Of a stretch of DNA of 64,000 nucleotides, positions 3,565 through 62,923 are shown piece after piece. A model generated the notes under the pieces. The model did not search any database. It had not been told where the DNA came from and saw only the letters and a list, made by a program, of their open reading frames with translations. The stretch is from Halorubrum sp. CBA1229 (GTDB taxonomy: Archaea > Halobacteriota > Halobacteria > Halobacteriales > Haloferacaceae). How positions within the stretch are numbered: position 1 is the first letter of the stretch; every line of letters starts with the position of its first letter. The position numbers and the translations under genes are program-made. Where the stretch lies: contig NZ_CP054585.1 in the NCBI RefSeq assembly GCF_003721435.2, forward strand, positions 2,914,001 to 2,978,000, read 5' to 3'.

Positions 3565-4275
3565 TCAGCACTGGGTGACATCGAACTGGATATCGAACTC
3601 GACCGTGTCGCCCTGTGCCGCGTTGATGTCGGCCTGATCCGGGGGGAAGGACCACCCGAACGTGACCGTCACCGCGTCCTCGGCGCCGAGACAGCTCGCC
3701 CCGGGCGTGAGCGGCGAGGCGTCGAGAGCGACGCCGTCCTCGAGGGCGGCGGCGACGTCTCCGAGCGTTCCGCTCGCGCCCGAATCGACGAGCCGTTCGC
3801 CCGGATCGTGCTCGGCGTTGTCGGACCCCAACGCTCCGACGTCGAAGAGGCCGGTGTCGTACCAGACCGCGATGTCGATGTACTCCTGTATCGACGTCGG
3901 CTCTCCGCCGTCCCTCAGCGAGACCGTCAATTCCGGTTCGACCGCCGGCCCGTCTCCCCCGCCCGAACCGTCGGTGACGATCCGGAGTCGGACGCTGAGC
4001 GATCCGGAATCTCCGGGAAGCACGTTGCCGAGGGAGATCGCCGGGCCCGACGGCTCGGTGCTCACGGTACCGGCGGTCGTGTCCGTCAGCGTCGCTCCGT
4101 TGTACGTCTCCCGCCAATCGATGACGCAGTCCTCGATTGCCTCCGTCTGAAGCTGCATCGTGTCGGTATACGCCCGACTCCCCTCGGTCATCAGCGCCAA
4201 TCCTCCGAGCGATGCGGCGCTCCCGCCGGTGATACCGGCGAGCAGCGTACGACGTGAGATGCGATCGAGAGTCAT
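3565..4275 (-). CDS. SipW-type secreted protein, TasA/CalY-like, 236 aa
   Basis: N-terminus MTLDRISRRTLLAG with twin Arg and a Gly/Ser/Ala-rich hydrophobic core, then SRAYTDT at the expected cleavage junction. The core matches the cluster's paralogues: VLPGDSGSLSVRL, IAVWYDTG, a GTLGDVAAALEDGVALD helix, and VTFGW.FPP..ADI..AQGDTVEFDIQF..TQC at the C-terminus. It has no inserted domain and is the most compact complete version of the fold. Stop is at 3565. The ATG at 4275 is 20 bp downstream of a tRNA-like T-arm/acceptor element. Expected to be exported and trimmed by the neighbouring peptidase; structural role inferred. Confidence 0.8.
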   Translation of the reverse strand: MTLDRISRRTLLAGITGGSAASLGGLALMTEGSRAYTDTMQLQTEAIEDCVIDWRETYNGATLTDTTAGTVSTEPSGPAISLGNVLPGDSGSLSVRLRIVTDGSGGGDGPAVEPELTVSLRDGGEPTSIQEYIDIAVWYDTGLFDVGALGSDNAEHDPGERLVDSGASGTLGDVAAALEDGVALDASPLTPGASCLGAEDAVTVTFGWSFPPDQADINAAQGDTVEFDIQFDVTQC

Positions 4276-4295
4276 GTGAGCTCTGTGTTGGAGAC

Positions 4296-4368
4296 ACCCA
4301 CCGTCGGAATCGAACCGACATGCACGGATCCGGTGAGTCCGGATGGGCCGGCATGCACCTGCGTGGGC
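4296..4368 (-). promoter_or_regulatory. tRNA-like leader element A (T-arm plus acceptor-like stem)
   Basis: On the minus strand GTCGG-TTCGATT-CCGAC (4303-4319) is a perfect 5-bp/7-nt T-arm with the canonical TTCGA loop. It is followed without a gap by GGTGGGT (4296-4302), which can pair with GCCCAC at 4363-4368 (five Watson-Crick pairs and one G-U). Between the two halves lies a hairpin ATCCG...CGGAT (stem near 4329-4345). The start codon of the 236-aa subunit is 20 bases downstream. Its T-stem differs from the other three copies but still pairs. Confidence 0.6.
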
Positions 4369-4374
4369 TGGGGG

Positions 4375-4408: not shown

Positions 4409-6049
4409 TTAGGTCTGACCGCTCCCGTCGTTGTGGCGGCACTGCTCGGTGTAGAACCCGAGATCGAAGGTCACCGAATCCCCTTGGACCTCGTTGCCGA
4501 CGTCGGCCGGGAGCCACCACTCGAAGCCGACGTACGCCGTCGTCGAGTTCGGGAAGCACTGGCGGTCGTCCGTCTCCCCGTTATCGCCGTTGTCTCCACC
4601 GCTCCCGTTGACGGGACAGCAGACATCGATGTTACTGATATCCTGATCAGTGGGTGTTGTCAGCGTTACCTCATCTAGAATGACCGGCTCATCCCACACG
4701 TAGATATTCTCGCCTTCGTTCCCGCCTTTCACGCTGACGACGCGCACGGGGTTGCCCGTCGAGATGGTGATCTCGTTGGGGGTGCCGTTGTCGTCGGTGT
4801 CGGTGAGAGTGTTTACAGTCAGGTCCGCACAGCTATTGTAATCCGTATTTTCCTCCAACATTCCCGCCTCGATATCCGTCCCAACGAGATCGATACCGAG
4901 TAGCTTCTCGTAATCCGCACACTGGAGGTTTCTCGGTTTCTTATTGGTGTATGAGGCGAATGGATCATCTTGAGTGCTATTATACACGCTCACCGACGCA
5001 TCGTCATACGCCGAGATCGTCGGGGTCTCACCGCTTTCTCCACCAGTTTCTTCGTCCGCTGGAGACACCGGTTCCGCATCGAGAGGGAACATGCCGTTTT
5101 CAAGCGCGGTGAGAACGCTCCGCAGCGTTCCCCCTAGTGGGATATACTTCTCCTCAGTTTGGAGATAGTTGTCTCCCTCGCTCCTATCACCGTCCTTATC
5201 CTCGTAATCCTCACCGTACACACCGTCAGTGCCGGTATCGTACCAGAAGGCGGTTCGAATCTCGTCGAGGATTTCGACTGTCTCCTCGTCGTCCTTCGCC
5301 ACGATTTCGCCGTCATCGTTGAGCGTCTGATCCTCGTCGTCCTCCTCCATCTCCGGTTCGGTCAACCCGTTCTCGCTGGCGCTAACGAGCTCGCCCGTCA
5401 GCCAGACGTAGCCGGGATTGTCACACAGGTGGAAGCTGAACGTCACCTCGCCGAAGTCGCCCGGCTTGGCGTCGCTGATGTTGACGAGGGGATCGCCAGC
5501 CTTCGTGGTCTGTGGGTTCGGTCCGTCGCCGATGGTGACTCCCCCGTCGACGTTTGCACCGGTCCGGTACGGATGGCTCAACACCCCATCGCCACCGTCG
5601 AGATCCGCGGGGATGTCACAGATGTCGCTATCGTTATCGAACCGGACTTTCTCACCGTCGTAATCCTCCGAGGCTGGGTCGTCCGTTAGCGTGTCCGGGA
5701 ACGCCTCGATGGCCGTGTTCGCGAGGAACCCGCGTGCATCTTCCATGTGCTTAACGAACACGGACTGCTCCGCTTCCGGCGCTGCAGCCGGGAACCCGAT
5801 GTCGTAATCGCCGTCTGGTTCCATACTGACGTCGACTTCATCGGATTCGTCGTCAGACCAGTCGGAGTAGTGTTCGGTCCAGTCGACTTTCAGGTCGAGC
5901 TCGCCCGCCGTGATCGTGTTGTTCTCGAACGATTCCGTGTCGCTGAAGTAGGCACTCGTGCCGAGCCCGGCACCGGCGGACGCGACGCCGACCGCTCCGA
6001 GGCTCGCGAGCGCCTTCCGTCGTGAGAGTTTGAAGCTTTTGTTACTCAT
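4409..6049 (-). CDS. SipW-type secreted subunit with inserted domain, 546 aa
   Basis: Starts MSNKSFKLSRRKALASLG with the SipW-type junction GTSAYFSDTESF..N.ITAGELDL (residues about 32-52). Core motifs: ISDAKPGDFGEVTFSFHLCDNP (about 195-215), IRTAFWYDTGTDG, a GGTLRSVLTALENGMFPLD helix, and a C-terminal FEWWLPADVGNEVQ..SVTFDLGFYTEQCRHND. Between the helix and that C-terminal strand sits an extra, visibly AT-richer segment of about 150 residues (roughly 4590-5060) with its own cysteines and a beta-rich look (LTDTDDNGTPNEITIS). I do not recognise that insert. The start is only 2 bp after the upstream gene's stop, so it is coupled to the 253-aa subunit and has no tRNA-like leader of its own. Confidence 0.8.
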   Translation of the reverse strand: MSNKSFKLSRRKALASLGAVGVASAGAGLGTSAYFSDTESFENNTITAGELDLKVDWTEHYSDWSDDESDEVDVSMEPDGDYDIGFPAAAPEAEQSVFVKHMEDARGFLANTAIEAFPDTLTDDPASEDYDGEKVRFDNDSDICDIPADLDGGDGVLSHPYRTGANVDGGVTIGDGPNPQTTKAGDPLVNISDAKPGDFGEVTFSFHLCDNPGYVWLTGELVSASENGLTEPEMEEDDEDQTLNDDGEIVAKDDEETVEILDEIRTAFWYDTGTDGVYGEDYEDKDGDRSEGDNYLQTEEKYIPLGGTLRSVLTALENGMFPLDAEPVSPADEETGGESGETPTISAYDDASVSVYNSTQDDPFASYTNKKPRNLQCADYEKLLGIDLVGTDIEAGMLEENTDYNSCADLTVNTLTDTDDNGTPNEITISTGNPVRVVSVKGGNEGENIYVWDEPVILDEVTLTTPTDQDISNIDVCCPVNGSGGDNGDNGETDDRQCFPNSTTAYVGFEWWLPADVGNEVQGDSVTFDLGFYTEQCRHNDGSGQT

Positions 6050-6051
6050 TA

Positions 6052-6813
6052 TTAGTTTCCGAATTCATCGTTGTGGCGGGCCTGTTCCGCGTAGAACCCG
6101 ACATTCGATTCGTGGGACGCGCCCTGCAGCTCGTTGCCGGCGTCGGGCGAGATCGCGATCTTGATACAGAGCGTGAGGACGTCCCCGGGATCGATCTGGA
6201 CCGGGTCTCCGGAGTCGTCGACGAGCGGCCACCCCGATTGGAGCGCATCGAACAGCGCGGTCAGTCCGACGAACTCCTGACTTTCGTTGGTCACCATGAA
6301 CTCGCCACTGGTATCGTCGTAATTGCCGAACGAGACGATGGCGGTGACGTTCTCGGACTCGCCGAGCGACTCGAAATCGGAGTCGTCAGCGATGTCGCTG
6401 ATCTCGTTCGGATCGATGTCGGCGTCACTACCGTCTTCGTCGGACACCTCCTCGCCCTCGAGTTGGACGAAACCGGGGTTGTGCTCGGTCGTGATGTCCC
6501 AGCACGGGTCGTAGGTGTCTCCCGGTTTCGCGTCCGCGATCGAGAGCGACGTCATGACTTGATTCTCGTCGAGATTGTACCAGTCACCGAGTTCGTCCGG
6601 ACCGATCCCCCCCTGGTCGATGGAACTCGCTGCCTCGTTGAACTCGATATTCACCCCGAACTCGCCCGCCTGAATCGTGTTGTCTGAGAAGTCCTCTTGG
6701 TCGCTGAAGTAGGCGCTCGTGCCGACCCCGGCACCGGCGGACGCGACGCCGACCGCTCCGAGGCTCGCGAGCGCCTTTCGACGCGACAGTTCGAACGCGT
6801 TTTTTTCGCTCAT
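6052..6813 (-). CDS. SipW-type secreted subunit, core-only form, 253 aa
   Basis: MSEKNAFELSRRKALASLG followed by GTSAYFSDQEDF..NTIQAGEFGV: the same signal as the next gene, with near-identical DNA over the signal-peptide codons. The body keeps IADAKPGDTYDPCWDI, a TALFDALQSGWPLVDD helix, and a C-terminal ISPDAGNELQGASHESNVGFYAEQARHND, with no inserted domain. It is very acidic. Stop and the next start are 2 bp apart, giving a two-gene unit with the 546-aa subunit. The leader 6814-6903 carries a T-arm element and a hairpin over the ribosome-binding site. It may be the main polymerising subunit, but that is inference from its simple architecture. Confidence 0.8.
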   Translation of the reverse strand: MSEKNAFELSRRKALASLGAVGVASAGAGVGTSAYFSDQEDFSDNTIQAGEFGVNIEFNEAASSIDQGGIGPDELGDWYNLDENQVMTSLSIADAKPGDTYDPCWDITTEHNPGFVQLEGEEVSDEDGSDADIDPNEISDIADDSDFESLGESENVTAIVSFGNYDDTSGEFMVTNESQEFVGLTALFDALQSGWPLVDDSGDPVQIDPGDVLTLCIKIAISPDAGNELQGASHESNVGFYAEQARHNDEFGN

Positions 6814-6837
6814 GGTCGATCATCCCCCGTGGGGAAG

Positions 6838-6876
6838 TCCCACCGGCGGAGTCGAACCGCCGTACACCATGTGGGA
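6838..6876 (-). promoter_or_regulatory. tRNA-like leader element C (minimal T-arm/acceptor minihelix)
   Basis: Minus strand: TCCCAC (6871-6876) pairs with GTGGGA (6838-6843), enclosing a 9-nt single-stranded part and a T-arm GGCGG-TTCGACT-CCGCC (6845-6861) that abuts the outer stem. The outer pair is U-A here where copies D and E have A-U, a compensatory change that supports real base pairing. Directly after it TCCCC (6831-6835) and GGGGA (6823-6827) form a hairpin that includes the G-rich Shine-Dalgarno region of the 253-aa subunit. Confidence 0.65.
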
Positions 6877-6903
6877 AATGACCGGGGACCGTGCTGTCCG
6901 GGA

Positions 6904-8589
6904 TCAGGTATCCGGAGATGACGGGCCGGTCGGACTGTCGTTGTGGCGGCACTGTTCGGTGTAGAATCCGATATCGAACTCGATAGAATCGCCTTGGACT
7001 TCGTTACCGACATCGGTCGGGAGCCACCACGCGAAGCCGATGTAGCGGGTGAATCCGGGCATGAAGCACTCCTCGAGACCGAGATCATCTAATTGGAGGC
7101 CACCGCCCTGTAGAGCATTGAGGTCATCTGCGAGAGTACTTCGCCTAATCTGCCGCTCACAGAGTGTACCGGTTGCCATATCCCCGAACCCATGATCCGT
7201 TAGATCACCGCTTAAGCTGTATCGGTCAAGTTCAGTACCGCTAAGATCGAATTCTATTAGCTCCGTACCTCCGGTAACAGATCCGAGGAGGCTCCCGGAT
7301 CCCGTGTCACGGATGGTGAGCCCCGTTAGGTCTTCACCGGTTTCGAGTTCGGCCACTTCCATCGTATTTCCGGAGAGCAAGTCGACGGCATGGAGCATGT
7401 TCCCAGCGTCTGTGTATAAGTAGAACTGACCGTTCGACGCGAAGACGTTATCCGCACCACTGATGTTGATATCAACATCCAGTCTGTTTGTCACTACTGG
7501 ATTCTCTGGGTCGGGGATCTCGAACAGATAATCCGAAGTACTCCCTATCCAGAGCGTACCGTCCGTGTCGACTGCTGCTTGAGTAATTTGTCCCAAGCTG
7601 TAGTCGCCTACATCGATGGGTTCGAACGTCAGTGAGTCGCTGTCGTAGTCGTAGACTGCGAGCTCATCCTCACCCTCAGCTACCATGTATACTGTCCCGC
7701 CGTCAGGGGACGTTCCAATATGAGTTCCCGCGAACTTGTCTTTTGAAATAGATGTCAGCTCCGACGTAACTGCGTTACCATTATTTATCGTCACTTCGTA
7801 TAACGTCGGATCTCTCTGTCCTTGGTAGTGATCTGCCAGATATAATTTCTCGTCACAATTGTTTCCGGTGAAGACGTTGTCACCGTCATCGTACCACCAG
7901 ACGGTCTGGATTTTGTTGGCAAGTTCTGGCCACTCACCCTCCGAATAGCTGTGATCACCGATTATCCAAACGTATCCAGGATTATCACAGAGGTGGTAAC
8001 TCAGCGTGAGTTCTCCGAAGTCACCCGGCTTCACGTCGTCCAGACTGACGAGCGGGTTGTTACCTCCATCGCCGTTATTTGTATCGCCGTTGTCAGTACG
8101 ACCAATCCCCGTGGAGTCGCGCTCTAGGTCATCGGGAAGGTCCGCACCGTCCTTACAGGGGTCGAAGAACTCTCCGTTACTGAAGTTGGAGCCCTCAACT
8201 TCCTGCTCCCCATCGTTGTCGGTGTCCGGGAACGCCTCGATCGACGTGTTCGACATGTAGTCGACGAGGTCGTCTTCGTGGACCCAGACCATCGGATCGC
8301 TCGGATCCGGCATCGCGACGTATTCGTCGGACGACTCCGGTTCCGACCTGTGGACGTCGAGACCATCGGTCGGATCGTCGAATCCGTAGATCTGCGGGAA
8401 GTTGTAGTGTTCCTCCCAGTCGACCTTGAGATCGAGTTCACCTGCGGTCAGGCTGTTTCCGTTAAACGATTCCTCGTCGCTGAAGTAGGCACTCGTGCCG
8501 ACTCCAGCCCCGGCGCTCGCGACGCCGATCGCGCCGATACCGGCGAGCGCCCGCCGCCGTGAGATGTTGAGTCCGTTGTTGTCGCTCAT
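6904..8589 (-). CDS. SipW-type secreted subunit with propeller-like inserted domain, 561 aa
   Basis: MSDNNGLNISRRRALAGIG, signal junction GTSAYFSDEESF..NSLTAGELDL (33-54). Core: LDDVKPGDFGELTLSYHLCDNPGY (183-206), VWWYDDGDN (230-238), STLADDLNAL helix (484-493), and FAWWLPTDVGNEVQ.DSIEFDIGFYTEQCRHND (519-551). Residues about 246-477 are an insertion with repeating blade-like strands such as TSPDGGTVYMVAEGEDELAV, AAVDTDGTLWIGSTSDYLFE and GNMLHAVDLLSG, typical of beta-propellers (YVTN/WD-like). The DNA of this insert (about 7158-7854) is visibly AT-richer than the core, suggesting separate acquisition. Preceded by the 90-nt tRNA-like element D. Confidence 0.82.
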   Translation of the reverse strand: MSDNNGLNISRRRALAGIGAIGVASAGAGVGTSAYFSDEESFNGNSLTAGELDLKVDWEEHYNFPQIYGFDDPTDGLDVHRSEPESSDEYVAMPDPSDPMVWVHEDDLVDYMSNTSIEAFPDTDNDGEQEVEGSNFSNGEFFDPCKDGADLPDDLERDSTGIGRTDNGDTNNGDGGNNPLVSLDDVKPGDFGELTLSYHLCDNPGYVWIIGDHSYSEGEWPELANKIQTVWWYDDGDNVFTGNNCDEKLYLADHYQGQRDPTLYEVTINNGNAVTSELTSISKDKFAGTHIGTSPDGGTVYMVAEGEDELAVYDYDSDSLTFEPIDVGDYSLGQITQAAVDTDGTLWIGSTSDYLFEIPDPENPVVTNRLDVDINISGADNVFASNGQFYLYTDAGNMLHAVDLLSGNTMEVAELETGEDLTGLTIRDTGSGSLLGSVTGGTELIEFDLSGTELDRYSLSGDLTDHGFGDMATGTLCERQIRRSTLADDLNALQGGGLQLDDLGLEECFMPGFTRYIGFAWWLPTDVGNEVQGDSIEFDIGFYTEQCRHNDSPTGPSSPDT

Positions 8590-8614
8590 GCGTATTCACT
8601 CCCCTGATGGGGAA

Positions 8615-8704
8615 ACCCACCGGCGGAATCGAACCGCCGTCACGCGGATGAACCGCGTACCGGGCCTCCGGGAGAACCGGAGACGCCGGAGTGCCAGCGT
8701 GGGT
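8615..8704 (-). promoter_or_regulatory. tRNA-like leader element D (90-nt, four-arm cloverleaf-like)
   Basis: Minus-strand order: ACCCAC (8699-8704); a hairpin with a wobble pair at 8685-8698; CTCCG-GTTCTCC-CGGAG with a 7-nt loop (8666-8682), placed like an anticodon arm; ACGCGG...CCGCGT (8642-8658), placed like a long variable arm; a T-arm GGCGG-TTCGATT-CCGCC (8622-8638); then GGTGGGT (8615-8621) closing 6 pairs with ACCCAC. Total 90 nt, the size of a class II tRNA, but the first arm lacks the D-arm consensus and pair 7-66 is mismatched, so I do not call it a tRNA gene. A hairpin over the ribosome-binding site follows (8600-8613). Confidence 0.65.
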
Positions 8705-8709
8705 GATCG

Positions 8710-10209
8710 TCAGTCGGCGGTCCCGTTTGACGGGAGCCCGTTGTCGTCTTGGTAGGTCCCGTTGAACGGCTCCGCCGGCGGGTCGTCGTTGTGCCGGCTC
8801 TGGAGCGCGTAGAACCCGAGATCGAAGACGGCCGAGTCGGTCTGGATCTCGTTGCCGACGTCTGTCGGGACCTCCCACTCGAAGCCGAGACAGTGAGTCA
8901 TCGCGCCCGCGAACGGTTCGCGTTCTTCGCTAGACCGGTTCCCGTCGAGGGCGATCCCGTCCTCTAGGGCGTCCATGGCGTCGGCGAGGGTGCCTTCCAA
9001 GATGACCTCCTCGCCGCCGGTGATCGTCTGCCCGACCTGGGCGAATACCTGGTCGATCGCGTCCTCGGCGCTCGTACCGCCGGCGACGACGAAGGTGTTG
9101 GAGTCGTCGTCCTGATCGCCGGTGGTGAGTCTGTTGAGGAACTGCTGGTTCGCTCCTGCGACGCCGATCGCGTAGAGTTCGATGTCGTCGTCGAGATCGT
9201 TGGCGGCGCTCAAAGCACTATCACTGTTGTCCGGAGAGCCATCAGTGAAGACGACCATGATCCGATCGTGGCCCCCGGTACAGTTGGCGAGATCGTCGCC
9301 GGCATCGGATATCCCGGAGCTCATGTTCGTGCTTCCGTTGGAGCCCAATCCAGTGAGATCGGACCACGCGTCCGCCACGCTGTTCACGACGTCCGAGCCT
9401 CCGGAGAACGTCGTCGCACCGACCTCGTTGTCATCGTTGGCGCCCAGAATGGTGTTCGCGAGGTCGTTAGCCGCGTCCTCGACTGTGCCGATGTCGCCAC
9501 CGATCGACCCGGACGTGTCGAGGACGAGTTGGACACACGATGGAACCGATGTCGTGTCGTCATCGCCCCCGTCGAGCACGTTGTTACAGTTCTCGTCGTA
9601 CCAGAGCGTGGTTTGGATGTTATCCGCGAGTTCTCCGGCACCCTCGCCCGGATCGCCGCCGGTTTCGTCGACGTCCGCCTCGGGCTCCGACTGGCCGTTC
9701 TCGTCGTTCGCCGTCAGCGCTCCGTTCATGTACATCCACGCGGGGTTGTCACAGACGTGGAGGCTGACGGTGACCTCGCCGGAGTCACCGGGCTTCACGT
9801 CGTCGAGTGCGAAGACGGGGATCTCATCGCCGTTGATGAGACCCAGATCCGGCGCACAGAGATCCGTGTTCTGGACCTCGTCCGCCCACATATCTTCCGT
9901 ATTGTCCGGCGTCTCGCCGATCAGGTACGTCCCGTCCTCGATCTCCTGCACGTCGAACGGCTCGCCCGGCCCGTCTGCGCTGTACCAGCTGTCCACCTCA
10001 CTGAGGCGTCCCGGGCCGCCAGCGTACGTGGCTTTGTAGTCGAGTTTGAGGTCGAGCTCGCCGGCCGTCAGCGAGTTGTCGTCGAACGATTCCTCGTCGC
10101 TGAAGTAGGCACTCGTGCCGATTCCGGCGCCAGCGCTGGCGACGCCGATCGCTCCGATACCGGCGAGCGCCCGCCGCCGAGACAGCTCGAGTCCGTTGTT
10201 GTCGCTCAT
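8710..10209 (-). CDS. SipW-type secreted subunit with inserted von Willebrand A domain, 499 aa
   Basis: MSDNNGLELSRRRALAGIG with junction GTSAYFSDEESF (32-42) and LTAGELDLKLDY. Core: LDDVKPGDSGEVTVSLHVCDNPAW (135-158), IQTTLWYDENCNNVLDGG (198-215), GTLADAMDALEDGIALDG helix (406-423), FEWEVPTDVGNEIQ..SAVFDLGFYALQSRHND (443-475). Residues about 225-397 are a complete vWA domain: VLDTSGS (D231, S233, S235), GSTNMSSG (T294) and VFTDGSPDN (D323) give a full metal-ion-dependent adhesion site. vWA domains bind protein ligands, so this subunit is a candidate adhesin. The insertion lies at the same core position as the propeller-like insert of the next gene. Confidence 0.85.
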   Translation of the reverse strand: MSDNNGLELSRRRALAGIGAIGVASAGAGIGTSAYFSDEESFDDNSLTAGELDLKLDYKATYAGGPGRLSEVDSWYSADGPGEPFDVQEIEDGTYLIGETPDNTEDMWADEVQNTDLCAPDLGLINGDEIPVFALDDVKPGDSGEVTVSLHVCDNPAWMYMNGALTANDENGQSEPEADVDETGGDPGEGAGELADNIQTTLWYDENCNNVLDGGDDDTTSVPSCVQLVLDTSGSIGGDIGTVEDAANDLANTILGANDDNEVGATTFSGGSDVVNSVADAWSDLTGLGSNGSTNMSSGISDAGDDLANCTGGHDRIMVVFTDGSPDNSDSALSAANDLDDDIELYAIGVAGANQQFLNRLTTGDQDDDSNTFVVAGGTSAEDAIDQVFAQVGQTITGGEEVILEGTLADAMDALEDGIALDGNRSSEEREPFAGAMTHCLGFEWEVPTDVGNEIQTDSAVFDLGFYALQSRHNDDPPAEPFNGTYQDDNGLPSNGTAD

Positions 10210-10218
10210 GCGTGTTCA

Positions 10219-10233
10219 CCCCCCCAAGGGGGG
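10219..10233 (-). promoter_or_regulatory. C-run/G-run hairpin covering the ribosome-binding site of the vWA subunit
   Basis: On the minus strand CCCCCC, then TT, then GGGGGGG forms a 6-bp stem with a 2-nt loop. The G-run is the only candidate Shine-Dalgarno sequence for ATG 10209, so the hairpin would hide it. Homopolymer runs of this kind are also prone to length changes. Confidence 0.55.
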
Positions 10234-10235
10234 AA

Positions 10236-10278
10236 ACCCACCGGCGGAGTCGAACCGCCGTAACGCACCTGAGTGGGT
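10236..10278 (-). promoter_or_regulatory. tRNA-like leader element E (minimal T-arm/acceptor minihelix)
   Basis: Minus strand: ACCCAC (10273-10278) pairs with GTGGGT (10236-10241) around 13 unpaired bases and a T-arm GGCGG-TTCGACT-CCGCC (10243-10259) that directly abuts the outer stem. This matches the minimal coaxial acceptor-plus-T-arm helix of tRNA. It lies between the 475-aa and vWA subunit genes. Confidence 0.65.
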
Positions 10279-10309
10279 GTTTATTAGTAGATCTAAGCGA
10301 TCTGTTACA

Positions 10310-11737
10310 TCATCTCCAGTTGATTACAAGTCCGTCAATTCCGGACCATCCACTAGCATCCCCCTCGATGTTGAGAGTTCCATCAATCTCGATGGTGTTT
10401 CCGGCTGAGGAGTCGATCCCCTGAAGCACTAGATACGTCTGTTCAGGTCCAGCGCTGGCAGCGAGTTGGTCGGGGGATACCGAAGTACCGTTCAGTGTGA
10501 GGTTTTTCACCGTGGTCGTGTCGCTGTTCAGGCTTCGTGCACTGATAGCGACGTCAACCGTTTGTGGAATTCCACCGTTCTGCCACTCAGTATCGCTACC
10601 CAGAGCGTTACCGTCTCCCTGACCATCAGTTACATCCGTATCGGATGCAGTCACATCGGTGCCACCTGCCTGCGAACCGAGGACCTCAAGCGAAGCCGTG
10701 TTCGAGTCCACATCGAGTGTTGCCGTGAAATCAACATCCTGATCTGCGGGGAAGTTATCCGAATCGTCATTCGCGTTACCGAACGGGAACGCAGTGTTAC
10801 CGGATGTCGCGTTATGAATCTCAGCTTCCGCACTGCCGGACCCTCCACTACCTTGTATGGACATTCCCAGTGCACGATTACTGTCAAAGGGTGGGTAGAG
10901 GTCGTCTGTCGTTCCAGTTGCGTACGGACTAGTCGGGTTCTCGTTATGGCGTTCCTGTTCCGCGTAGAACCCGAGGTCGAACTCGACCGAATCGGACTGG
11001 ATCACGTTGCCAACCGTGGTCGGCACGTTCCATTCGATACAGATACACGGCCCAGTCTGCGTGTCCGAGTCAGGGCTGGCCGGATATGCGCCGTCATCAG
11101 TCGGCACCCATTCGCCTCCCTCCTCCACGTACCCGTCTAACAGATATCCATACTGAAGTTCCAGAAGGAGATCCGTGAGCGTGTAGTCTTCAGGATTGTT
11201 GAGTTCCCGAACCGTTTCGAAATCTTCCGGACCCGATGGATCGCTGCCCTCGAGATCGTCGGACGGTTCACAGTACGCCACCGTGACCTGGATGTTGTCC
11301 GCGAGTTCGCCGTTGCCAGCGCCGGGGTCACCGCCCGTGTCGTCGACCTCCGCCTCAGGCTCAGTCAGGTCGTTCTCGTACTGTGTGAATCCGGAGCTAC
11401 CCGCCCACAGCCACGCGGGGTTGTCCACGATCTTCGGACAGAACACCAGCTTCCCCGAGTCGCCGGGCTTGACGTCGTTGAGGACGTACTGCGCCGACAC
11501 GCCGCCGTCGTTTTGACCGCTTCCGGTCGTTCCCCCGTCGATCGCCTCCGAGTTTGCGCCCGTCCAGTAATCGACGAAGAGGTCCAGCTCTCCCGCAGTG
11601 AGTGTGTTATCCTCGAAGCTCTCCTCATCGCTGAAGTACGCGCTTGTTCCGACTCCCGCTCCCGCGGACGCGAGGCCCACGGTCCCGAGACCGATCAGTG
11701 CGTTCCGCCGTGACAGCTCGAATTTCTTGTCTGACAT
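10310..11737 (-). CDS. SipW-type secreted subunit with C-terminal beta-rich extension, 475 aa
   Basis: First gene of the minus-strand cluster. MSDKKFELSRRNALIGLG; junction GTSAYFSDEESF..NTLTAGELDLFVDY. Core motifs LNDVKPGDSGKLVF, VDNPAWLW, a YTLTDLLLELQYGYLLD helix, and IEWNVPTTVGNVIQ.DSVEFDLGFYAEQERHN, which ends the common fold at about residue 318. A further 155-residue Ser/Asp/Gly-rich, beta-strand-like domain follows (10310 to about 10785), ending GWSGIDGLVINWR. It could be a cap, anchor or capsule-binding module; I do not recognise it. ATG 11737 is used because upstream frame residues to 11806 overlap the structured leader and are not signal-like. Confidence 0.8.
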   Translation of the reverse strand: MSDKKFELSRRNALIGLGTVGLASAGAGVGTSAYFSDEESFEDNTLTAGELDLFVDYWTGANSEAIDGGTTGSGQNDGGVSAQYVLNDVKPGDSGKLVFCPKIVDNPAWLWAGSSGFTQYENDLTEPEAEVDDTGGDPGAGNGELADNIQVTVAYCEPSDDLEGSDPSGPEDFETVRELNNPEDYTLTDLLLELQYGYLLDGYVEEGGEWVPTDDGAYPASPDSDTQTGPCICIEWNVPTTVGNVIQSDSVEFDLGFYAEQERHNENPTSPYATGTTDDLYPPFDSNRALGMSIQGSGGSGSAEAEIHNATSGNTAFPFGNANDDSDNFPADQDVDFTATLDVDSNTASLEVLGSQAGGTDVTASDTDVTDGQGDGNALGSDTEWQNGGIPQTVDVAISARSLNSDTTTVKNLTLNGTSVSPDQLAASAGPEQTYLVLQGIDSSAGNTIEIDGTLNIEGDASGWSGIDGLVINWR

Positions 11738-26976: not shown

Positions 26977-27894
26977 ATGGACGACGACGTGCTGGAGGGG
27001 CTCGGCTCGCCGCTGGTTCGGGTCGACGCGCCGCCGGAGACGACGGTGGCCGCGAAGGTCGAGTCGCGCAACCCGGGCGGCTCCGCGAAGGACCGCCCGG
27101 CGCGGTACATGGTCGAGGCGGCCGAGGAATCGGGAGAGCTGGAACCGGGGGACGGGATCGTCGAACCCACGTCCGGCAACACCGGCATCGGGCTGGCGAT
27201 GGCCGGCGCGGTGAAGGGGTACGACGTGACGCTCGTGATGCCCGACGGCAAGTCGCTGGAGCGCCGCCGGATCATGCGCGCGTACGGCGCGGAGGTCGAG
27301 CTCGTCGACGGCGACATCTCCGCGGCCAAGGACCGCGCCGACGAGCTCGAGGCCGAGGCGGGGATGGTCCAGCTCCGGCAGTTCGAGAACCCCGCGAACC
27401 CGCGGGCCCACTACGAGACCACCGGCCTGGAGGTCGTCGAGCAGGTCGGCGACCGGACCGTCGACGCGCTCGTCGCCGGCGTCGGGACCGGCGGGACCAT
27501 TTCCGGGATCGGTCGTCGGCTCCGCGAGGAGTTCCCCGACGTCCGGGTCGACGCGGTCGAGCCCAGCGACAACGCCGTCCTCTCCGGCGGGGAGCCCGGA
27601 AACGACGCGTTCCAGGGGATGGGACCGGGCTTCGTCTCGCCGAACCTCGATGTCGACCTCATCGACGAGGTCCACGCGGTCGGCATCGAGGAGGCGGAGG
27701 CCGAGTGCCGGCGGCTCGCCCGCGAGGAGGGGATCCTCGTCGGGCAGTCCTCGGGCGCTTCGAACCTCGCGGCGAAGGACGTCGCCGCGGAGCTCCGGGA
27801 CGCCGGCGCCTACGCCGGCGAGGAGCCCCTCGTCGTCACCGTGTTCTGGGACAGCGGCGAGCGGTACCTCTCGGCCGGCACCTTCGACGAGTAG
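26977..27894 (+). CDS. PLP-dependent cysteine synthase family protein, 305 aa
   Basis: Fold-type II PLP enzyme that makes cysteine from O-acetylserine (or a related activated serine) and sulfide. ESRNPGGSAKDRPA has the PLP-binding Lys; EPTSGNTGIGLAMAG contacts the substrate carboxylate; VAGVGTGGTISGIGR is the phosphate-binding loop; VGQSSGASNLAA is the usual C-terminal PLP-ring contact. ATG 26977 and in-frame GTG 26953 are both possible; I favour ATG. Confidence 0.9.
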   Translation: MDDDVLEGLGSPLVRVDAPPETTVAAKVESRNPGGSAKDRPARYMVEAAEESGELEPGDGIVEPTSGNTGIGLAMAGAVKGYDVTLVMPDGKSLERRRIMRAYGAEVELVDGDISAAKDRADELEAEAGMVQLRQFENPANPRAHYETTGLEVVEQVGDRTVDALVAGVGTGGTISGIGRRLREEFPDVRVDAVEPSDNAVLSGGEPGNDAFQGMGPGFVSPNLDVDLIDEVHAVGIEEAEAECRRLAREEGILVGQSSGASNLAAKDVAAELRDAGAYAGEEPLVVTVFWDSGERYLSAGTFDE

Positions 27895-61760: not shown

Positions 61761-62853
61761 CGCGCCCGCGGACCCCGAGGGCGCCGGCGTCTCGGCCGAG
61801 AGCGCCGAGGGTGAGGGCTTCTTCGAGCGGTACACGACCCGGGCGATCGCCGCCGGCGTGACGGTCGCCACGGTCGTCGCGCTGCTGCTCGCCGGGGCGC
61901 TGTTCCCGGACTCGCTCGCGGGGACGCTCTCGGACGCGCTCACGAGCCGGAACACGCTCGCGTCGGCGCTGCGGCTGTCCGTGCCGATCGCGTTCGCCGC
62001 CCTCGGGGGTATCTTCGCGGAGAAGTCGGGCGTGATCAACATCGGGCTGGAGGGGCTCCTGATCATCTCGGCGTTCAGCGCCATCTACGTCGCCGACCTC
62101 ACCGGCGGTGTCTGGCTCGGCTTCGCCGGCGGAGTGGTCGCGAGCACGCTGCTCGCGGCGCTGTTCGCCGTCGTGACGATCGGGTTCCGCGCGGACCAGA
62201 TCATCGCCGGGCTCGCGGTCTGGCTCATCGCGCTCGGGCTCGCGCCGTTCGCCTCGCAGGTGATCTACGGCAGTCCGAACACGCCGATCGTGGCGACGTC
62301 GCCGTCGATCACGGTGCCGGTGCTCGCCGACATCCCGTTCTTCGGCGCGCTCTTCTCGGCGTCGCCGTCGGTGTACATGCTGTTCGCCGCCGTCTTCGGC
62401 TCGTGGTACGTCTTCGAGCGGACGGCGTTCGGCCGGTGGATCCGCGCTAGCGGCGAGAACCCGAAGGCGCTCGATACCGCCGGTGTGAGCGTTACCCGCG
62501 TCCGGTACGCGGCGGTGCTGATCTCGGGCGTCCTCGCGGGAATGGGCGGCGCGGCGCTGTCGCTCGACCTCGGTCAGTTCACCGGCAACGGCCCGACGAT
62601 GGTCAACGGGAAGGGGTTCATCGCCATCGTCGCGTACCTGTTCGGCAACTACAACCCGGTCGGGGCGTTCCTCTCGACGATGCTGTTCGCGGGGCTGGAC
62701 GCGGTCCAGACCGTGCTCCAGCTCCAGGGGATCGGGATCCCCCGTCAGCTCATCCGGGTCACGCCGTTCGTGGTTGTCATCCTCGTCCTCGCCTTAGTCG
62801 GGCGGACGCGGCTCCCAGAGGCGGCCGGGGAGCACTACGAGACGGAGGAGTGA
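61753..62853 (+). CDS. BMP-type ABC transporter permease, 366 aa
   Basis: AALGGIFAEKSGVINIGLEGLLIISAF is the family hallmark, with GRWIRASGENPKALDTAGVSV and FTGNGPTMVNGKGFIAIVAYLFGNYNPVGA later. Nine or ten helices. GGAGGTGA is 5 bases upstream of ATG 61753 and inside the preceding gene, so translation is coupled. Last gene of the nucleoside importer. Confidence 0.93.
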   Translation: MSDAPADPEGAGVSAESAEGEGFFERYTTRAIAAGVTVATVVALLLAGALFPDSLAGTLSDALTSRNTLASALRLSVPIAFAALGGIFAEKSGVINIGLEGLLIISAFSAIYVADLTGGVWLGFAGGVVASTLLAALFAVVTIGFRADQIIAGLAVWLIALGLAPFASQVIYGSPNTPIVATSPSITVPVLADIPFFGALFSASPSVYMLFAAVFGSWYVFERTAFGRWIRASGENPKALDTAGVSVTRVRYAAVLISGVLAGMGGAALSLDLGQFTGNGPTMVNGKGFIAIVAYLFGNYNPVGAFLSTMLFAGLDAVQTVLQLQGIGIPRQLIRVTPFVVVILVLALVGRTRLPEAAGEHYETEE

Positions 62854-62923
62854 GGCCTCGTCCGGGACGAGAGGAGGGGTGAGGCCTCGTCCGAGGCCGA
62901 CGCGGTCGGCGAAGGCCGGTCGC

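Follow-up and report, generated by a model that had tools for sequence, protein, structure and literature searches.

tRNA-like elements between exported-protein genes of Halobacteriales share their form with the t-element that precedes 5S rRNA

In Haloferax volcanii, the 5′ end of 5S rRNA is made by tRNase Z, which cuts a t-element (Hoelzle 2008, as cited in PMC3296008 and PMC4326828). RNase P likewise accepts Haloferax t-elements as substrates, and in cells an RNA flanked by two of them is released (PMC4326828). In mitochondria, transcripts are punctuated by tRNAs (Ojala et al. 1981, as cited in PMC10941002), and the tRNA-shaped units between the cistrons define the mRNA ends via RNase P and tRNase Z. 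The MALAT1 mascRNA/menRNA (RF01684) are likewise tRNA-like units in a longer transcript that are cut by RNase P and RNase Z (PMC4919922). The yjdF riboswitch is a tRNA-like mRNA leader with an elbow of the D-loop/T-loop type (PMC9142559).

The t-element as such is known. The literature searched describes no conserved class of it that lies between protein-coding genes, in multiple copies and across a whole order. This search returned no report of t-elements in such a position, and an earlier description may exist. The class is described here from Halorubrum sp. CBA1229 (assembly GCF_003721435.2, contig NZ_CP054585.1, positions 2,914,001-2,978,000). The whole stretch of 64,000 nt is referred to as the window, and its coordinates are used throughout; the operon, its elements, and their parts are all read on the minus strand. 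The mitochondrial units are real tRNAs, whereas these archaeal chromosomal elements are minimal mimics whose processing is predicted. The mascRNA/menRNA differ in forming a cloverleaf at the 3′ end of mammalian long noncoding RNA, and the RF01684 model reaches a sub-threshold 12.2 bits (cut-off 42.5) at 8636-8684, off the t-element core. The yjdF riboswitch differs as a bacterial four-helix junction that binds azaaromatic ligands and is a homologue of tRNA-Lys. Its covariance model has no Rfam match in the window at the gathering score and is absent from the weak matches of the element stretch.

The window copy of the element spans positions 8614-8704. It is constructed from an outer stem of 6 bp (8704-8699/8620-8615), a GG near this stem (8695-8694), a linker of 59 nt that harbors a long hairpin (8689-8660) and a second hairpin (8659-8641), a 6-bp T-arm (8639-8621) with the T-loop UUCGAUU (8633-8627), and a discriminator position at 8614. 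The pairings are those of the predicted minus-strand fold, which has a z-score between -4.30 and -4.45 and was equaled in 0 of 200 shuffles. The element is followed by the hairpin UCCCC AUCA GGGGA (8600-8613), which would become the 5′ end of a processed mRNA and which is helix 3 in the family alignment, where 94% of its cells are paired. The 3′ strand of this hairpin doubles as a weak Shine-Dalgarno-like run.

A preliminary description had read this stretch as a four-arm cloverleaf leader of class II tRNA size. The outer 6-bp stem that it proposed is present in the fold (z -4.30), and its hairpin near 8642-8658 is recovered as 8659-8641. The T-arm is found as well, with a stem of 6 bp instead of the 5 bp assigned to it. 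The hairpin in the D position (8685-8698) and the separate hairpin at 8666-8682 are absent from the predicted fold, where the single long hairpin 8689-8660 replaces them. The four-arm look of 8614-8704 is due to the length of the linker in this copy, and ARAGORN labels the stretch tRNA-Arg(CCG). The Rfam tRNA model gives no match to 8614-8704 at the gathering score or even at E-values up to 10. An Rfam scan of the element under the same two settings yielded no fitting family.

The element is a member of a large Halobacteriales family, real but no decayed class II tRNA. A covariance model made from 16 leaders, all of them mRNA elements (R1), has matches in 151 of 392 Halobacteriales genomes and 53 of the 95 genera sampled, with up to 10 copies per genome; the window copy is matched at 8594-8705 with an E-value of 2.1e-11. 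Halorubrum, Halobellus, Halobacterium, Natronomonas, Halolamina, Haloarchaeobius, Salinigranum, and Halapricum are among the carriers. In a phylum-wide sample of 344 genomes that includes other orders, all of the matches listed fall in Halobacteriales. Of the 170 genomes in the taxonomic family, 31 contain the exact pattern GGTTCGANTCCNNNGGTGGGNNTTCC and 0 contain it read backwards. In the CBA1229 genome, four genes of the operon have the core before them, and a second cluster adds two more sites.

The order of the core is fixed: the outer stem CCCAC/GUGGG of 5-6 bp encloses about 3 nt, GG, the linker, and a T-arm of 6 bp whose loop reads UUCGAYU. On the 3′ side come a hairpin from 13 nt past the T-loop and then the start codon of a protein for export, mostly of the SipW type. 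All five inner pairs of the outer stem are formed in 115 of 126 non-redundant copies, the GG starts 2-4 nt into the linker in 113, the T-loop reads UUCGAYU in 110, and all six T-stem pairs are present in 111. The strands CCCAC and GUGGG of the outer stem are found in 91 and 109 of the 126 mRNA elements, respectively. Among 130 distinct sequences, 95% of the cells in the outer stem, the T-arm, and the hairpin after it are paired, versus 46-69% with the partner slid, and both partners have changed in 13 of the 17 pairs. Fitting to the model biases the alignment toward the modeled structure, yet pairing in the slid and shuffled controls is far lower. From the counts of pairs, GG, and T-loops together with the slid controls, it follows that the conserved unit is the acceptor/T-arm stack of a tRNA with a D-loop-like GG, and that the four-arm cloverleaf is accidental to the window copy.

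Conservation does not extend to the remainder of the cloverleaf. Linker lengths in the 126 homologues range from 6 to 74 nt (0 in one truncated match), with a median of 18 nt. No common structure was found in the linker across these homologues, and the D and anticodon arms that the class II reading calls for are unconserved. In the sister copies that start at 10279 and 6877, there is almost no linker. The expectation that the arms pair in homologues applies to the outer stem and T-arm, while the inner hairpins drop out. A CCA after the discriminator is present in 0 of the 126 copies. In short-linker copies, the outer stem is missing from the minimum-energy fold, and its mean probability over 124 sequences is 0.50 in a folding model that omits T-loop tertiary contacts and high salt.

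The operon starts with a SipW-type gene (10310-11737) that has no element upstream. A sister element with a 12-nt linker (10215-10279; R1 E 6.3e-15; R2, the 5S-derived model introduced below, E 1.4e-5; predicted cut 10235/10234) precedes the gene of a SipW-type protein with a VWA domain (8710-10209), whose stop codon lies 5 nt 5′ of the window copy. The window copy leads the gene of a 561-aa protein with a SipW-dependent-type signal peptide (6904-8589; TIGR04088 E 6.8e-8). Further down, a sister element with an 8-nt linker (6817-6877; R1 E 2.2e-13; R2 E 9e-4; predicted cut 6837/6836) stands before the gene at 6052-6813. The SipW-type gene at 4409-6049, which starts 2 nt after the preceding stop, has no element upstream. 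The last sister element (4276-4369; R1 E 4.6e-5; R2 E 0.056; predicted cut 4295/4294) is more divergent, has no clear downstream hairpin, and precedes the gene at 3565-4275. The four element-led genes have their start codons at 10209, 8589, 6813, and 4275. The cluster is closed by a signal peptidase I of the SipW/archaeal type (1496-2527; TIGR02228 E 1.3e-35).

Across the family, at least 112 of 128 elements precede a protein with a twin-arginine-like N-terminus and a hydrophobic stretch. Most of the downstream proteins have SipW-dependent signal peptides (TIGR04088), and a smaller group carries the motif GAFTSV. Most of the remaining elements are found at the end of a locus, or the gene behind them is masked or frameshifted, or the leader is longer; the one at locus L161 is a 5S t-element. 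Where enough upstream DNA was available, 101 of 109 elements lie within 200 nt 3′ of the stop codon of a long ORF (median 31 nt), and eight have no gene just upstream. As a control, a long ORF just upstream is found at 21% of random positions and on the antisense side in 29 of 97 cases. Within the named loci, an element is carried by 47 of 66 internal SipW-type genes versus 3 of 20 first genes (Fisher p 1e-5, a guide only because the genes are related and the loci were picked for having elements). The tRNA-shaped unit lies between cistrons on the coding strand, as in tRNA punctuation.

The relation to the 5S t-element is found in both directions. Weak R1 matches in the genome scan adjoin 5S rRNA directly on its 5′ side. 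In 31 5S loci gathered by pattern, R1, which had no 5S input, matches the t-element in nearly all cases, with 27 matches at E-values up to 0.05. Conversely, a model from twenty 5S t-elements only (R2) matches the window copy with the ends 8614 and 8704 (E 3.6e-4 in the window). In the whole genome, R2 ranks the two 5S sites first and four mRNA elements third to sixth, the window copy coming after one sister copy. The whole-genome R2 E-values of the mRNA copies (7.9e-4 for the best to 0.17; window copy 0.02) are modest, and therefore the ranking outweighs any single value. The suggestion of the preliminary description that a tRNA mimic resides in a 5′ leader is sustained by these results, as a conserved acceptor-like stem and T-arm precede the start codon and the 5S t-element model returns the same ends.

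The two classes share their architecture. Some 3 nt and a GG follow the outer stem of 5-6 bp, the linker is free in length and may or may not form hairpins, and the T-arm pairs over 6 bp around a UUCGANU loop. The product, which is a predicted one in the mRNA elements, starts with U and a helix at a distance of 13 nt from the T-loop, and each class is found by the model of the other. With its outer stem, its T-arm with a tRNA T-loop, and its linker of free length, the window copy is, as judged from sequence, a t-element of the 5S type. The distance between the T-loop and the 5S 5′ end (UUAA) is 13 nt in 30 of 30 5S t-elements, and in most of the 126 mRNA elements a U(U)CCC...GGG(A)A hairpin begins 13 nt past the T-loop. 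By this geometry, the tRNase Z cut is predicted at the 8614/8613 boundary. The classes differ in their location: the 5S t-element lies before 5S rRNA, whereas the mRNA elements lie between protein-coding cistrons, where cleavage is a prediction. The outer stem is variable in 5S t-elements (CCGAY, CUGAC, CCGGU) and nearly fixed as CCCAC/GUGGG in the mRNA elements, which, unlike the 5S t-elements, are followed by a conserved UUCCC/GGGAA hairpin.

The fold matches the tRNase Z substrate before 5S rRNA, and therefore the element probably marks a cut site in a long message. We consider it reasonably probable that the family consists of intercistronic t-elements, minimal tRNA mimics that are cut by tRNase Z to free each downstream cistron. 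The outer stem and T-arm would stack coaxially to about 11-12 bp, the length of the acceptor plus T-stem in tRNA. The GG would take the place of the D-loop guanines, and the free-length linker would replace the D, anticodon, and variable arms. tRNase Z would then read the element as a 5S t-element and cut one nucleotide past the outer stem (8614|8613). The cut would generate a 24-nt leader that starts with the 8613-8600 hairpin and ends at the AUG at 8589; each downstream cistron would likewise be released as its own mRNA with a short hairpin-first leader. RNase P may cut on the 5′ side and trim the upstream mRNA. A tRNase Z gene is present in the CBA1229 genome. The fold, its conservation and covariation, the likeness of form to 5S t-elements in both directions, and the position between cistrons are observed, whereas cleavage, the identity of the enzyme, and an effect on the stability or output of each cistron are what we infer. 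Some predicted Haloferax t-elements, in work by Hoelzle from 2012, reportedly stay uncut by tRNase Z in vitro. Several features count against this reading, namely the fixed outer stem, the 8 of 109 elements without an upstream gene, the internal genes that lack an element, and the short-linker copies whose minimum-energy fold misses the outer stem.

The main rival, which we regard as unlikely, leaves the element in the mRNA as a tRNA-like translational leader, whose elbow or a switch that masks the ribosome-binding site would set initiation for each cistron, perhaps with a ligand or protein. The yjdF riboswitch, a tRNA-like leader with a D-loop/T-loop contact, regulates translation, and grafting of authentic tRNAs into an mRNA activates it (PMC9142559). 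The start codon always lies close on the 3′ side of the element, some first genes have an element, and the near-fixed outer stem suggests a demand beyond tRNase Z recognition. However, the 5′ strand of the outer stem pairs downstream (probability >0.5) in only 9% of 124 sequences, the linker (6-74 nt) is without a conserved ligand-binding core, and the start codon in Halobellus is found about 60 nt further down. A translational leader also leaves the match to a processing substrate and the exact 13-nt register unexplained. Two particular switches were rejected. A strand swap between the outer stem and the downstream hairpin, hinted at by single folds, is favored in only 9% of sequences, and masking of the Shine-Dalgarno run by the hairpin fails as a general rule because several Halobellus start codons lie tens of bases further on.

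The near-fixed CCCAC/GUGGG stem across several families, compared to the variable 5S stems, could alternatively reflect a dedicated RNA-binding protein that reads both the outer stem and the T-arm in order to regulate the operon, the likeness to t-elements being a matter of descent instead of cleavage. The restriction of the elements to exported-protein genes would suit such a regulator, but it would need neither the tRNA-like length nor a hairpin at the predicted cut, and no candidate protein was identified; we hold this explanation to be improbable. It is more improbable by far that the elements are relics, either of a decayed tRNA, as the preliminary description had suggested, or of a DNA repeat that has spread through tandem paralogues by recombination. 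The paralogous genes do stand in tandem and ARAGORN does call a tRNA, but the family is maintained with strong covariation in 53 of 95 genera at a fixed position and orientation, the linker varies, and the Rfam tRNA model is unmatched. In its simple form, the relic is ruled out by the covariation with conserved pairing.

To return to cleavage by tRNase Z, this enzyme should tolerate variation of the stem, as in the 5S class, and therefore CCCAC/GUGGG should be read by something else, either a protein or translation. It is conceivable, and offered here as a tentative extension, that the elements provide regulated tRNA punctuation for exported surface-protein operons, in which cutting by tRNase Z (and RNase P) would set the stoichiometry or timing of the cistrons, and the fixed stem would mark a further factor that separates the mRNA elements from the constitutive 5S t-elements. 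If intercistronic cutting is true, an archaeal lineage uses its tRNA-maturation machinery to divide protein-coding operons at tRNA mimics made for this purpose, as mitochondria do with real tRNAs, and tRNase Z has a conserved mRNA role in Archaea. The elements would then give a handle on the balance of exported-protein operons, and more than 100 natural substrates would show what a minimal tRNA mimic needs.

Several variants were observed within the family. A subclass has the loops UUCGCGA/UUCGUGA in place of UUCGAYU, with outer stems such as UCCCG/CGGGA (L013:2925-3003, L086:28-104, L055:25-91). At L062, two elements (1478-1542 and 1543-1672) stand in direct tandem, with one frameshifted SipW-type gene downstream. 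The Halobellus loci L099, L104, L110, and L128 have an extra hairpin between the hairpin of the element and a start codon tens of bases on. The R1 match at L160:1501-1574 is followed by an unrelated frame and no exported-protein gene, and it possibly reflects another use or chance.

tRNA finders make false tRNA calls on elements of this kind. ARAGORN reports tRNAs on the homologous elements L099:3957-4030, L121:673-758, and L154:1513-1595, and such calls may sit in public annotation. In the window, it additionally calls a tRNA-Leu(aag) at 27296-27387 and a tRNA-Arg(gcg) at 62787-62880, both on the plus strand; neither has a tRNA T-arm, and GC-rich DNA appears to have misled the program in both cases. 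A 15-bp tandem repeat stands in ten copies at 1132-1289; in the SipW-type protein of 970-1503 these copies give (TDNTT)n, likely a glycosylated or elastic Thr-rich stretch of variable length.
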